From NCBI GenBank assembly GCA_014896315.1, contig JADBKP010000005.1, forward strand, positions 1 through 64,000: a stretch of 64,000 bases of DNA, read 5' to 3'. Positions 1 through 4,848 of this stretch are shown here, piece after piece. Every line of letters starts with the position of its first letter. Position 1 is the first letter of the stretch. The translations under genes were made by a program, and so were the position numbers. The notes beneath the pieces were generated by a model. The model did not search any database and was not told the origin of the DNA. It was given only the letters and a program-made list of their open reading frames with translations. Origin of the DNA: Limnochordales bacterium. Lineage in GTDB: Bacteria; Bacillota; Limnochordia; Limnochordales; DUMU01.

Positions 1-587
1 GCTTCTTCTCCGGACACGCGCTCAAATGGGCATTTCACTGTCAAACTCCCGCCCGCCTGCAGGTAAGCGAGCACGTCGCTCAAAGTCTCCTCCATGCCGC
101 GGACCCGTTCTACCAGATCCTGCACCTGATCCTTAAGGAGAGCCAGCTCACTTTGGAGTGAGGATTCTTCCGACCAGACGGGGGCGGGGGGCAAGACGGC
201 AGGGGAGGGCGGCTCGAGCTCCGGGGCAGGCAGGAGTGACTCCGGTCCGAGGTCGGTCCGCCCCGTCGTGGCCGGGGTAGTGACGGGAACGGGGGCAAGC
301 GGCAGATCTTTGGTGAGCCAGTTTCGGAGGGCTCGGAGTCTCTCTCGCACCACCGTCTCGGGTGTTCCGTCCTGCTGTAACCACTTGTCAAGGTTGGCCA
401 GGGCCTGGAGCTGCCTGTCCGTGAAAAGTGGGTCACCGCCCGGAAGGCGCAGACAACCCAGCTCATCTCTGTATCGCGCTTCGTAGTAGCGTAGCCTGGC
501 CACTGACCAGCCCAGCTTGAGGGCGGCGGTTGCCGGTGTGGAGAGCAGGCTGCAGCCACCGTCTTGGTTACCGCGGGGAAGTGGCAT
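1..587 (-). CDS. MerR-like HTH protein with coiled-coil tail, 3' end cut by window edge
   Basis: An open minus-strand frame runs from an ATG at 587 to the left edge without a stop (about 195 residues visible). Residues 14-75 resemble a MerR-type winged helix: STPATAALKLGWSVARLRYY matches the MerR recognition helix and LRYYE signature, and FTDRQLQALANLDKWLQQDG matches the second part. A Pro/Thr-rich linker follows (about 85-140), then a heptad-like helix (SLQSELALLKDQVQDLVERV). MerR-fold plus coiled coil is also the layout of RacA and other chromosome-anchoring proteins, but there is too little here to choose between that and a transcription factor. An in-frame GTG at 605 is an alternative start behind a purine-rich stretch. 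It diverges from the gene at 801; the 213 bp between them hold no convincing promoter. Confidence 0.72.
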   Translation of the reverse strand, partial: MPLPRGNQDGGCSLLSTPATAALKLGWSVARLRYYEARYRDELGCLRLPGGDPLFTDRQLQALANLDKWLQQDGTPETVVRERLRALRNWLTKDLPLAPVPVTTPATTGRTDLGPESLLPAPELEPPSPAVLPPAPVWSEESSLQSELALLKDQVQDLVERVRGMEETLSDVLAYLQAGGSLTVKCPFERVSGEE

Positions 588-800
588 GGCGCTGGTGCGG
601 CCCACCTTTCCTACCTGCCAGGACCTGGCGCTGCCCGGAGCCGGCTACTTTGTGGGGATACTCTCCTCTTGCATCAGTCTCCGCTGTTGCCTCTCGGTTT
701 CTGCTTCTGCACCAGACGGGAAATCCCTGCGACGGTTTCGTACCCGCCGGCGGCATAAGTCGCCAGGACAGGGGAAACTCTGCTTGGGTGGGGGAAGAGC

Positions 801-2039
801 GTGGGCAAAGTGATCTGGGGACTGAATGCCGCGATGGCCAGGTTGCGGACAGCCTGGGAACGGCGGATCAGGACGGGGGAATTCATTTCCCGTCTTCGTG
901 CCTTTGCTCTCACACCGGAGGATCTCGTCTGGCTTCCCAGGCTTGTCAATCTGCGCCTGCTTATCGTGAGCGACCAGGTTCTGCTCAATTCCAGGGCGCG
1001 GCAGCCGGCCTTGATCCTGCTGCCCTCAGGAGCGATCAGGGTTGCGGCGATGGATGGGCCGGCCCAGAGCTTCGCCGAGACCTTCTACAAGTTGCTCTTG
1101 CTCAGTGTGCGTGCGTTGCCTCTCGCTCCGGAAGCCTGCCTCTTGCAGCACCCCCGTCGGTGGTGGGCCGCAGGCAGACAGAAGGAGTGCGGGTGCGATC
1201 GGGGAGTGTCCATCGCGCGTACGGGTGCGGTTCTTACGCCCAGGAATGCTGGGCTTATGGTTACCGATCATGCTTTGTTGAACCGGACGGCTGCTGGTGG
1301 CCGCCGTACGGCCTTTTCGCTCCTGCGGGGGACACCCGACGTGGTCCTGGCCCAATGCCGATGGATCTGGCGGCCGGGAGAAGAGGGGGGCAGCCAGGTA
1401 CGCCTGCTCTCCGAGGAGGAAAAAGGAGAGATCCTGGCCGCCGCCGATCAGCTGATGGCCCAGAGTTATCTTCCTGTTTCGCTGGCCATCCGGTATCAGG
1501 TGGGGCAGAGTTTGGGGACGGGCTGCCCGCCCGGAGAAGACCCCGGATCGGAGGGAGAAATCCGGGCAATAGCCGGCAGGGGCGGGCGGGGTAAGGCGGC
1601 CGTCTATCTGGGCCTGATGGCATTTGACAATCCGCTGTATACGGGAGTGGAGAAGATTCTCGATTTCTTCCGTAGCCGGGGCGTGAACGTACTCTGGGAG
1701 AGCAGGTTGCCATCCCGGCTGCAACGGGCCATAGCTGCATCCGCCCTTGATAATCTGGTCATGACCGGAGAGCAGCCGTCCCGTCTTCCCGGCTCTGTCC
1801 GGCATCTTGCATACGTAGGCCGCGAGCGAACCGAGGAGGCTCTTGTCTGTCGCGAATGGGAGGTGGCGCGGGTACAGGCCTTTCCCGACGGCAGCGGGCG
1901 GTTGCAGTCGCTCGGGCATCTTCCCCGGCGGGTCGTACCCGTACCGGCGCCGGCGAGCGAAGGAAGTCTACTTGTCCGCTTGCAGGAGCTTTATCTTCTG
2001 GCTGAACAAGCCATCATAGCCGGTGTACAATCTAATTAG
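801..2039 (+). CDS. Degenerate P-type ATPase cytoplasmic-domain protein (pseudoenzyme)
   Basis: A 412-residue intact frame (GTG start behind GGGGGAAGAG) reads, from about residue 100, like the P and N domains of a P2-type cation ATPase with catalytic motifs lost. The DKTGTLT phosphorylation motif aligns with ARTGAVLT (139-146; Asp and Lys replaced); KGAPE aligns with RGTPD (176-180), followed by a VVLAQC stretch; the DPxR region aligns with YLGLMAFDNPLYTGVEKI; the TGD hinge motif is gone (WESR near 299-302); MTGE (321-324) and VARVQAFPDGSGRLQSL match the segment before GDGxNDxPAL, which is itself absent. The membrane helices of a pump are missing, so the protein is probably soluble or peripheral. 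Neither ATP hydrolysis nor transport is expected. The unbroken frame argues for a retained non-catalytic role. It lies just upstream of hpf. The family relationship is my inference from motif order. Confidence 0.6.
   Translation: MGKVIWGLNAAMARLRTAWERRIRTGEFISRLRAFALTPEDLVWLPRLVNLRLLIVSDQVLLNSRARQPALILLPSGAIRVAAMDGPAQSFAETFYKLLLLSVRALPLAPEACLLQHPRRWWAAGRQKECGCDRGVSIARTGAVLTPRNAGLMVTDHALLNRTAAGGRRTAFSLLRGTPDVVLAQCRWIWRPGEEGGSQVRLLSEEEKGEILAAADQLMAQSYLPVSLAIRYQVGQSLGTGCPPGEDPGSEGEIRAIAGRGGRGKAAVYLGLMAFDNPLYTGVEKILDFFRSRGVNVLWESRLPSRLQRAIAASALDNLVMTGEQPSRLPGSVRHLAYVGRERTEEALVCREWEVARVQAFPDGSGRLQSLGHLPRRVVPVPAPASEGSLLVRLQELYLLAEQAIIAGVQSN
2003..2031 (+). promoter_or_regulatory. Probable sigma-A promoter of hpf
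   Basis: TGAACA-17-TACAAT lies inside the last codons of the preceding gene, about 70 nt before the hpf start. Four of six -35 bases and five of six -10 bases match the vegetative consensus, with the optimal spacer. Confidence 0.5.
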
Positions 2040-2100: not shown

Positions 2101-2724
2101 ATGAAAGTCACGGTAACGGGTCACAACATCGAGGTGACGGCAGCCCTTCGTTCCTACGCGGAGAAGAAGGTAGCACGGCTCGAAAAGGTGTTGCGGCCGG
2201 GCGGATCTGAGCCGGCGGCCACGGTCAGGCTCCGCACGGAACGCGGCAGGCACATCGTGGAGATAACCATCAGCAGCCAGGGACTGCTCGTGCGAGGGGA
2301 AGGACGGACCCCTGACATGTACGCCTCCATCGACGAGGCGGTGGACAACATCGAGCGGCAGGTACAAAAGGCCCGCACCCGCTGGTTGCAGCGCAAACAA
2401 GACCGACCCAAGATTGCCGTGGCGTTGTTGGCTGAGGAGCTGGGGGTCGAGGCGGAGCGCGGTCAAGAGAATGTTCGGGACGTTGCGGCGCAGGCGCAGC
2501 GCACGGTTGCCGGTGAAGTTGTGGACGAAGAACTCCCGCGGGTCGTTCGAGTTAAGCGATACGAATGGAAGCCGATGTCGCTGGAGGAGGCCATGACCCA
2601 GATGGAGCTTTTGGGGCACGACTTCTTCGTCTTCACCAACGCCGAAACCGACGAGGTCAACATCCTCTACCGGCGCCGGGATGGCAACTTCGGTCTGATC
2701 GAGCCGGAGACCACCGCCAAATAG
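2101..2724 (+). CDS. hpf: Ribosome hibernation-promoting factor, long form
   Basis: Long HPF (207 residues) dimerises 70S ribosomes into inactive 100S particles in stationary phase. The N-terminal ribosome-binding domain (MKVTVTGHNIEVTAALRSYA to about residue 100) is S30AE/RaiA-like, and the C-terminal dimerisation domain (about 148-205, VVRVKRYEWKPMSLEEAM, HDFFVFTNAETDEVNILYRR) is the part that distinguishes the long form. A strong ribosome site (AAGGAGG) precedes the ATG. Its place upstream of secA-prfB is the same as hpf (yvyD) in B. subtilis, here with several genes inserted between. It has its own promoter at 2003-2031. Confidence 0.95.
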   Translation: MKVTVTGHNIEVTAALRSYAEKKVARLEKVLRPGGSEPAATVRLRTERGRHIVEITISSQGLLVRGEGRTPDMYASIDEAVDNIERQVQKARTRWLQRKQDRPKIAVALLAEELGVEAERGQENVRDVAAQAQRTVAGEVVDEELPRVVRVKRYEWKPMSLEEAMTQMELLGHDFFVFTNAETDEVNILYRRRDGNFGLIEPETTAK

Positions 2725-2749: not shown

Positions 2750-4027
2750 ATGGCCATAAGAAAAGAACGAGGGCGCTGGTTGCAGGAGCCGGTCGCCCTC
2801 CTGATCTTTGAGGGTGATCGTCCGGTCTCCCCGGTGGAGGAATGGATGGCGGCTGCCCGGGCAGCGATTGTCCTCGACATTCTGGAGAAGGCGGCCCGGG
2901 TGGAGACCATAGACCGACGGTTGCTGGTTACCAACCGGCGGTGGCTGGCCGATGAGGCAGCACGGCTGAACCTGGCCGAGGTCGTCTGGGAGGAACCGGA
3001 GGAGCCGCCTCACGGTTCGCGCAGGAATCCGTGGGAGTATCATCTGGGCCGGGCCCTGGCCGCCGTAATTCTGAAACTGGAATTGCCCAACGTGATTTAC
3101 TGCGGAGGTGGTGCCTGTCCGCTCGTGACCGAAGAAGAGTTGTATGAGATCGGGCGACGGTTGAAGGAAGAGAAGCACCTGGTGCTGACCAACAATCCCT
3201 TCTCGGCCGATCTCGTAGCCTTCTCGCCGGGTGACGCCATCGGGCAGATCGAGCTTCCCGAGGCGGACAATCCCCTGCCCATGCTGCTACACCACCAGGC
3301 GGGCCTCAGGCTTGTACAGCTACCTCGTACGCTTGGTATCAACTTCGATATCGACACTCCGACTGATCTGATGGTGCTGGCGGTTCACCCGGGAGCGGGG
3401 GTGCGGACGCGCGAGGCGCTTAGCCGGCTGCCTCTTGAGCTCAGCCGGTTCGAAAAGGCCAAGGAGCTGCTGCTCAATCGGGAGGCCCAGGCACTTGTCT
3501 ACGGTCGGGTTGGGGCACCGCTCTTTGGCTATCTGGATGAGAAAACCCGCTGCCGCTTGCGCCTTATCTCGGAGGAGCGGGGCATGAAATCTTCAGGGCG
3601 GGATGAGCGGGGAGAAGTCGTCTCGCTGCTCGGGCTCCTCTGGCAGAATACCAGTCCGCAGAGGTTTTTCTCCGCCCTGGCCGATCTTGCCGATGTGGCC
3701 TTCCTGGATACCCGGGTACTCTTTGCCCACCTCTTCGGGCGGGTCAAGAGGTCGGATCGCTTTTACTCCGACCTGGGGCAACCGGAGAAAATCGAGGATC
3801 CCAGGGTGCGGCTGTTTACGGAGGCAGCGCTGGAAGCTCCGATTCCGGTTATCCTGGGAGGGCATTCTCTGGTTACCGGAGGACTGTGGGCGTTGTTGGA
3901 TGCTGCTTATGCGACCCAGGCAGCCGGATCGACGGTAACAGCTGACGGAAAGGGCCGCTTCGAGAGTGGCACAGGGCGGATTCAGTTTGCTCCGGCCGTC
4001 TATCCGCTTTCCCCTTGGCAGGAGTAA
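2750..4027 (+). CDS. Uncharacterised protein, possible GT-A-fold nucleotidyltransferase
   Basis: This 425-residue protein starts 25 nt after hpf and is probably cotranscribed. I do not recognise a named family with certainty. The middle part looks like a MobA/CofC-type nucleotidyltransferase: NVIYCGGGACPLVTEEELYE places a glycine-rich loop after a strand, and LGINFDIDTPTDLMVL resembles the acidic strand-loop that ends such folds. The C-terminal third (about 280-425) is separate and contains VILGGHSLVTGGLWALLDAA. There is no signal peptide or membrane segment. A hypothetical guanylyl- or cytidylyltransferase is the best guess; a non-catalytic relative is equally possible. Confidence 0.6.
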   Translation: MAIRKERGRWLQEPVALLIFEGDRPVSPVEEWMAAARAAIVLDILEKAARVETIDRRLLVTNRRWLADEAARLNLAEVVWEEPEEPPHGSRRNPWEYHLGRALAAVILKLELPNVIYCGGGACPLVTEEELYEIGRRLKEEKHLVLTNNPFSADLVAFSPGDAIGQIELPEADNPLPMLLHHQAGLRLVQLPRTLGINFDIDTPTDLMVLAVHPGAGVRTREALSRLPLELSRFEKAKELLLNREAQALVYGRVGAPLFGYLDEKTRCRLRLISEERGMKSSGRDERGEVVSLLGLLWQNTSPQRFFSALADLADVAFLDTRVLFAHLFGRVKRSDRFYSDLGQPEKIEDPRVRLFTEAALEAPIPVILGGHSLVTGGLWALLDAAYATQAAGSTVTADGKGRFESGTGRIQFAPAVYPLSPWQE

Positions 4028-4191
4028 GCCAGAAATTCTCAACAGGGTTGGCGCGCGGCAGGAGTTTTAGTTGCCGGCCGAGAAAGTAGGCTAGGCCGGT
4101 GGCTTTCTCTATCTATGTCGACGGTTTCCAGAAACTGGCTTACCTTCCAGTACAGTCTGTAGCATCACCACTGCAACAGGGGGTAACGCGT

Positions 4192-4848
4192 GTGGGGGCC
4201 GCCACCAGGCCGGAGGTAGATTGGGAAGCACTGGAGCAATCCCTGGCGGAGCTGCGTGGAGTTCATTCGTGCAAAGTCGTAACCAGTGATACTGGCGAGC
4301 TTGCCGAGGTACACGTGGTCGCCGAGGGACGCAGCGTACAGGAACTGATCGGGGAGATCGAGGCTCTTTTTCAGGTTCAAGCAGGGTTTGTTCCGGACAG
4401 GCAAAAGATATCTATAGCGCTCCTGGGTAGTGAAAAGGGAATTGCCGAAGAACGTCGTATAGAACTTCACTCGTATTCTGTCGAGAAGACTCGGGAGGGC
4501 CTGAGGATCCGAGTTGAGCTCGCATGGCACCACAGTGTCTATGCGGGCGATGCAGAAGGTGGCCGGTCTGGTGAAACCGGCCCGGTGGTGGCGGCCGAGG
4601 CGACCGTCCGAGCCATTCAGGCCGGGTTACCGGACGGAGAACACCTTCGGGTGGAGGAAGCGACGGTCACACGCCTGGGTGATACCGAAATCGTACTGGT
4701 GGCGCTGGCACTGCAAAAAGAAGGTGGTGAAATCCCCCTTCTGGGGACAAGTGTTGTTCGAGGAGACAAGGTAGAAGCCACAATCAAAGCCTGCCTGGAC
4801 GGCCTGAATCGCTATCTTGGCTGCCAGACTGGGCGGGTCGGGCGGTGA
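4192..4848 (+). CDS. Conserved-looking protein of unknown function
   Basis: Start GTG 4192 is chosen because AGGGGGT sits 8-9 nt upstream; the frame is open further up to a GTG at 4099, which has a weaker site. About 218 residues. Two alpha/beta parts are visible: residues about 8-60 (LRGVHSCKVVTSDTGELAEV then VQELIGEIEALFQV) and about 95-210, where a beta-rich stretch alternates with helices (VVAAEATVRAIQAGLP, IVLVALALQKEGG, LLGTSVVRGDKVEATIKACL, LDGLNRYLG). The second part resembles a repeated strand-helix domain seen in unannotated Firmicutes and actinobacterial proteins, but I cannot name it. Soluble, without obvious catalytic residues. It ends about 150 nt before the leader of the small peptide and HD-GYP genes. 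Confidence 0.6.
   Translation: MGAATRPEVDWEALEQSLAELRGVHSCKVVTSDTGELAEVHVVAEGRSVQELIGEIEALFQVQAGFVPDRQKISIALLGSEKGIAEERRIELHSYSVEKTREGLRIRVELAWHHSVYAGDAEGGRSGETGPVVAAEATVRAIQAGLPDGEHLRVEEATVTRLGDTEIVLVALALQKEGGEIPLLGTSVVRGDKVEATIKACLDGLNRYLGCQTGRVGR

Follow-up and report, generated by a model that had tools for sequence, protein, structure and literature searches.

The window, by which we mean the whole stretch of 64,000 nucleotides that was analysed, lies at the beginning of contig C16 in a draft genome of 2.6 Mb. Its first genes and features are given below.

3 to 605, minus strand: divergent MerR-like gene with weak MerR_1 and CarH matches, an upstream neighbour kept in all three genomes that carry the pseudoenzyme gene
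801 to 2039, plus strand: pseudo-P-type ATPase ORF of 412 aa, with a GTG start at 801 and ending at 2039, TAG stop included
2003 to 2031, plus strand: sigma-70-like promoter match (9/12), a consensus match only, inside the end of the ORF and upstream of hpf
2101 to 2724, plus strand: hpf, long-form ribosome hibernation promoting factor (PF02482, PF16321, TIGR00741), a conserved downstream neighbour

The ORF at 801–2039 is referred to as the pseudoenzyme gene below. The hpf gene starts 61 bases past its stop codon and is followed by genes for a 425-aa protein (2750–4027), a 249-aa protein and an HD-domain protein, and then by secA from 8089. A sequence-only reading of this DNA had located the pseudoenzyme gene just upstream of hpf-secA. 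This is right for hpf, the next gene at 2101, but not for secA, which lies about 6 kb further on. The 425-aa protein, encoded on the plus strand directly 3' of hpf, matches nothing in Pfam, NCBIfam, PADLOC or PHROGs, and its ORF cluster (c3) is conserved, being found in seven of the compared loci. It contains an INFDIDTPTDL-like stretch that presumably recalls MobA/CofC-type nucleotidyltransferases. The 249-aa protein (4099–4848, plus strand) has a sub-threshold match to the LeuA dimerisation domain (E 0.003), and its ORF cluster occurs in four compared loci.

Taken by itself, the open frame at 801–2039 is weak evidence at the G+C of this DNA, since it is overlapped by further ORFs (297 and 354 aa). 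It had been argued from the 412 intact codons that the gene is not freshly decayed. The frame is indeed intact, but its openness does not serve as proof beside such overlapping ORFs; it is the orthologues described below that exclude fresh decay. The membrane helices of a pump are absent from the 412-aa protein, as the sequence-only reading had stated. Its maximum 19-residue hydropathy is 1.42, with no segment at transmembrane level, and the corresponding values of the three orthologues range from 1.17 to 1.50, compared with 2.6–2.85 in three real pumps; the six or more helices of a pump are missing from all three orthologues. In addition, none of them matched the actuator domain (PF00122), with its TGES motif, in Pfam, even with E allowed up to 10. 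Judged from its sequence, the product of 801–2039 is a soluble pseudoenzyme that goes back to the cytosolic loop, with its N and P domains, of a type II (Ca2+-type) P-ATPase.

Only two of 60 relatives carry the pseudoenzyme gene. The orthologue in G001, which belongs to the same genus, has 438 aa and 45–46% identity (L005:395-1711, minus strand), and the one in G002, of the same family, has 461 aa and about 33% identity (L006:4891-6276, plus strand). A search of genome contigs with the single protein gave no match, and the three-sequence alignment as query recovered both orthologues. In 73 class genomes, the three-sequence profile turned up no additional short member. Across 398 phylum genomes, the matches listed (at most four candidates per genome) held only full-length pumps and no soluble members, although short ones behind intact pumps could escape such a search. 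The gene is confined to one Limnochordales family and three genomes, all of them drafts, and the G001 and G002 records are metagenome-assembled; three sequences are thus the total. About 70 residues are invariant across them, many of which are not pump consensus, for example W44, W188, W190, W299, W353 and the PDG at 362–364. Their lengths vary strongly near residues 120–135 and 326–340.

In all three genomes the pseudoenzyme gene lies between the divergent MerR-like gene and hpf. The order in G001 is fliD, MerR-like gene (minus strand), pseudoenzyme gene, hpf. In G002 it is the same, except that genes for an amino-acid transporter binding protein and a permease intervene before hpf. The MerR-like ORFs form one cluster (c10), with members in the window, G001, G002 and G015, and the pseudoenzyme gene is absent from family f2 and from G015, where the MerR-like gene and hpf are both present. 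Since two transporter genes intervene in G002 and a promoter-like site precedes hpf, a functional link to hpf is weakened, and hpf transcription may be independent of read-through from the pseudoenzyme gene. In several families of the same taxonomic order, amino-acid ABC transporter genes closely precede hpf (L006:6419-8112, L082, L083, L085 and L086).

The pseudoenzyme gene escapes the family databases. Searches with the single 412-aa protein against Pfam, NCBIfam, PADLOC, PHROGs and the PDB gave no match, and only the three orthologues together reveal its origin. Their profile matched P-type ATPases in 15 class genomes other than the three that carry the gene, with E per genome from 1e-7 to 4.5e-4, and in about 35 of the 398 phylum genomes (best E 1.4e-9). 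All the frames that it matched, 548–1788 residues long, are pumps or open fragments of pumps. Its match in the PDB was the plant Ca2+ pump ACA8 (8qmp, E 6.8e-6). The reverse search with a pump profile recovered all three orthologues (E 1.5e-6, 1.8e-6 and 5.7e-6; the best of 900 shuffles reached 1.5). The best profile matches are type II pumps, and heavy-metal-type pumps score low. The profile-profile comparison proposed along with the sequence-only reading also led to P-type ATPases, as hhalign against an alignment of 24 pumps gave a probability of 97.1% over residues 169–326. Descent of the pseudoenzyme from a P-ATPase is as good as certain.

The region of secure homology is the C-terminal half of the N domain and the second part of the P domain. 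The first 168 residues gave no significant alignment to pump loops by hhalign or by anchored profile alignment, and as a query over 73 class genomes they matched only the three orthologues. They are placed tentatively, by spacing and the predicted model only, and their assignment is not secure. The statement that the C-terminal 300 residues follow the P/N-domain landmarks of a Ca2+-type pump therefore stands for residues 169–326, where the profiles bear it out, and not for the first 168 residues, which are not significant alone.

The predicted fold agrees with this origin. From the three orthologues, with no pump sequence in the alignment, AlphaFold gave a poor model (pLDDT 41.6), but the best 50 PDB matches of this model in Foldseek were all P-type ATPases (best E 2.4e-6). 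With 34 pump loops included in the alignment, the pLDDT rose to 75 and the pTM was 0.76. This pump-guided model (381 residues) is biased by design and was used for topology only. Its best 50 matches span 291–366 alignment columns (best E 2.3e-12) and include PMCA, Na,K-ATPase and SERCA, with TM-scores by query length of 0.33–0.47, which a different rotation of the two domains might explain. The resemblance to the P/N domains that a structure prediction had been expected to reveal was thus found, even without pump sequences.

The positions in the pseudoenzyme that can be compared with pump motifs are as follows, all on the plus strand.

894 to 971: residues 32–57, putative start of the P domain (LRAFALTPEDLVWLPRLVNLRLLIVS), with strand 51–57 as the probable counterpart of the pump VICS strand before DKTGT
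972 to 974: Asp58 codon, putative former phospho-acceptor site, invariant in the three orthologues; the Lys and Thr of DKT are lost and the register is uncertain by one
1215 to 1226: ARTG (139–142), proposed earlier as the DKTG equivalent, 37 residues before R176 and inside a predicted beta-strand in both models
1305 to 1778: residues 169–326, secure homology by hhalign (97.1) and by forward and reverse profiles
1326 to 1340: RGTPD (176–180) replacing KGAPE/D, with the ATP-binding Lys (SERCA K515) changed to Arg176 in all three
1629 to 1640: NPLY (277–280) replacing DPPR (SERCA D601–R604); N277 and P278 are invariant, NPxx in all three
1701 to 1709: SRL (301–303) replacing TGD (SERCA T625–D627); S301 and L303 are invariant, S-[RQ]-L in all three
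1857 to 1904: WxxxRxQxxPDGxxxL (353–368), a lineage-specific conserved stretch where pumps have FARVSPEHKLRI and then GDGxND

The SERCA residue numbers (K515, R560, D601–R604, T625–D627) are those that we take to belong to the aligned sites. In addition to the changes listed, the equivalent of Arg560 is Pro225 in all three orthologues. The loss of the TGD hinge and of GDGxND, noticed in the sequence-only reading, is confirmed by the alignments: TGD is changed in every orthologue, and GDGxND is without counterpart, the pump stretch of FARVSPEHK and GDGxND being supplanted by WxxxRxQxxPDGxxxL. Moreover, the search for orthologues with the same losses at the same locus in related genomes succeeded in two genera (G001 and G002). 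By alignment, the mappable nucleotide-binding and catalytic residues are lost since before these genera split.

DKTGT is found in none of the three orthologues. The sequence-only reading had taken ARTG as its altered form, which is probably wrong. The distance from DKTGT to KGA in the intact pumps of these genomes is 94–192 residues (a few larger spacings, in f4, come from KGS pumps and are spurious), and ARTG is probably not equivalent because its 37 residues are too few and because a predicted strand runs through it. The matter was not decided by ungapped motif scoring, which taken alone rather favours ARTG, ranked first in some scoring windows, while D58 came third or fourth in others. D58 precedes R176 by 118 residues, within the pump range. 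In residues 32–57 a strand is predicted, with a block pLDDT of about 90 in the pump-guided model, and MAFFT aligns the pump strand there, although profiles by themselves give this region no significance. Residues 53–58 read LLIVSD in the window's protein, with a confident strand just before D58, and the likely equivalent of DKTGT in the orthologues is D58-Q/S/G. The aligners differ by one residue in register, placing the phospho-Asp at S57 or D58. The former phospho-acceptor is likely to lie at residues 57–58, and its aspartate is perhaps retained as the invariant Asp58. A head without the ATP site, the phosphorylation motif and the membrane part cannot transport, and we are very confident that the protein is catalytically dead as a pump.

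The best explanation of these observations, and in our view a probable one, is a cytosolic pseudoenzyme from the N/P head of a P-ATPase that acts as a binding module. Its job is probably new and non-enzymatic. The protein would no longer hydrolyse ATP or form a phospho-enzyme, and most likely it would bind a partner instead. Such a binding role is pointed to by the new conserved residues and the ancient, shared losses. Most likely it would dock to a partner that once met the N and P domains of the pump. The partner could be either of two intact type II pumps that all three genomes keep, with which the pseudoenzyme might compete or which it might hold in one state. Action on a P-ATPase in particular is nevertheless a doubtful proposition, suggested by co-presence only. 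Alternatively, the partner could be a cytosolic stress protein made from the MerR/hpf locus; a part in the hpf or stationary-phase response, suggested only by the position of the gene, is just as doubtful. The pseudoenzyme may, as had been proposed, represent a regulator or sensor of a new kind, its link to hpf being positional.

The origin of the gene might lie at the same locus. Intact type II pumps of two clades are kept in all three genomes, and in three other families an intact type II pump is encoded upstream of hpf.

About 1.7–7 kb upstream of hpf, same strand as hpf: hpf-linked pumps, loci L133, L142, L134, L095, L094 and L091, in G005, G008, G010, G014, G018 and G019

The linkage of pump and hpf may be ancestral. 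A pump upstream of hpf could then have degenerated in place to become the pseudoenzyme, whose job may still concern the regulation of that pump, an origin compatible with a binding module. The hpf-linked pumps of these six genomes form one group on the tree, together with the clade L103/L116/L123 that is kept elsewhere in the window's family, and joining the pseudoenzyme to this group is not rejected (AU p 0.57), although its branch is very long and allows other placements. Against this, its best scores are not with the hpf-linked group, no pump stands between the MerR-like gene and hpf in family f2 and G015, and the adjacent genes differ among the families. Degeneration in place is a reasonable hypothesis and no more, and we hold it to be possible rather than probable.

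Two other pump genes of the window's genome appear damaged. At G000:C2:122542-123146 (L129), an E1-E2 ATPase domain runs over two frames, apparently a broken type II pump, whose intact relatives are present in G001 (L124) and G002 (L127). At G000:C1:277374-277913 (L132), a P-type ATPase has an in-frame TGA within its first domain match, which indicates a broken gene or an assembly error.

A different outcome of pump degeneration would be a slowly decaying remnant, in which the membrane half of a pump gene was lost in the family ancestor and the rest drifts under weak constraint with no useful role. The pseudoenzyme does evolve fast, with 46% identity within the genus versus 75–77% for the loops of active pumps, so that its constraint is relaxed. 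Its dN/dS between the window and G001 is 0.34 (NG86), an approximate value only as dS is about 1.7 and saturated, compared with 0.09–0.18 for intact pump loops of the same genomes and 0.12 for hpf. The variation in length near residues 120–135 and 326–340 is large, and the apparently broken type II pump in the same genome suggests that such genes may decay here. However, a frame of 412–461 codons has stayed open at the same place in two genera, and the window's gene has identities of 0.57, 0.64 and 0.37 with its G001 orthologue at the first, second and third codon positions. The third position is far more diverged than the second, by a difference of 0.26 (99% interval 0.17–0.35). The invariant residues, many of them foreign to the pump consensus, also argue against drift. 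The gene is under purifying selection in frame, about two to three times looser than that on active pumps, and the comparison of nonsynonymous and synonymous rates suggested beforehand gave, together with the codon-position pattern, a non-neutral result. Decay is therefore an improbable reading, and there is a strong likelihood that this is a retained functional protein and not debris.

Somewhat less probable still is a remodelled HAD-type enzyme whose metal site would have been rebuilt and which might act as a phosphatase or as a slow ATPase, with Asp58 as the possible nucleophile and Ser301 as motif II. HAD motif II usually has Ser or Thr; S301 is invariant and aligned with the Thr of TGD. 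D58, the candidate for motif I, is likewise invariant and follows the correct strand in the model, but its register is uncertain by one residue, and the lysine of motif III and the acidic residues of motif IV have no counterpart in the aligned region. Sequence leaves the loss of activity uncertain, since ATP is hydrolysed by the isolated N/P head of PfATP4 even when the phospho-acceptor aspartate is missing (PMC12152296). The same work found the lysines of the nucleotide-binding site important (PMC12152296), while in all three pseudoenzymes the equivalents of K515 and R560 are R and P.

That the protein is an orphan unrelated to P-ATPases is hardly credible: the empty Pfam, NCBIfam and single-sequence PDB searches and the non-significant N-terminal third would suit a chance resemblance, but the forward and reverse profiles, hhalign and the fold search with the pump-free model all name P-ATPases, which refutes chance for residues 169–326.

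A binding module made from a pump head remains our preferred reading. The core of the sequence-only reading, a soluble, retained and catalytically dead N/P-domain protein, holds, and no refuting outcome named beforehand appeared. Its reach is narrow for now, covering one little-known bacterial family and three genomes. In the open-access literature searched, we found no soluble natural pseudoenzyme of P-type ATPase origin. It is conceivable, if somewhat speculative, that this is the first such family, kept to regulate either the type II pumps of the same cell or the stress response of the adjacent hpf.

Compared with type II P-ATPases (ACA8 8qmp, PMCA 9gsi, PfATP4 9n10; pumps L103, L116, L123, L117, L118 and L125), the pseudoenzyme aligns in the second half of the N domain and the P-domain core, and most of its pump-guided model shares their fold. 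Unlike them, it lacks the membrane helices, the actuator domain, DKTGT, TGD and GDGxND, and its nucleotide-binding Lys and Arg are replaced. The recombinant N/P head of PfATP4 is a stable soluble protein alone (PMC12152296). That head, however, is engineered, keeps the ATP-binding and Mg2+ residues and hydrolyses ATP (PMC12152296), whereas the pseudoenzyme is natural and has lost those residues. Human TMEM94 (ERMA) is similar in having P-ATPase-like cytosolic domains and no agreed phosphorylation cycle. A cryo-EM study argues against its being a P-type ATPase (PMC12134183), and another report claims the opposite (PMC13322241). TMEM94 differs in being a eukaryotic full-length membrane protein with ten helices, an A-like domain and disputed activity. 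Among kinases and phosphatases, pseudoenzymes are a familiar phenomenon. In bacterial pseudokinases and other pseudoenzymes, which have been reviewed (PMC12599244, PMC10211241), catalytic residues are likewise lost while the fold and the gene are kept, although the fold is a different one. Should the protein described here regulate either a pump or a stress response, it would show that the mobile cytosolic head of such pumps can be put to new use as a binding module.
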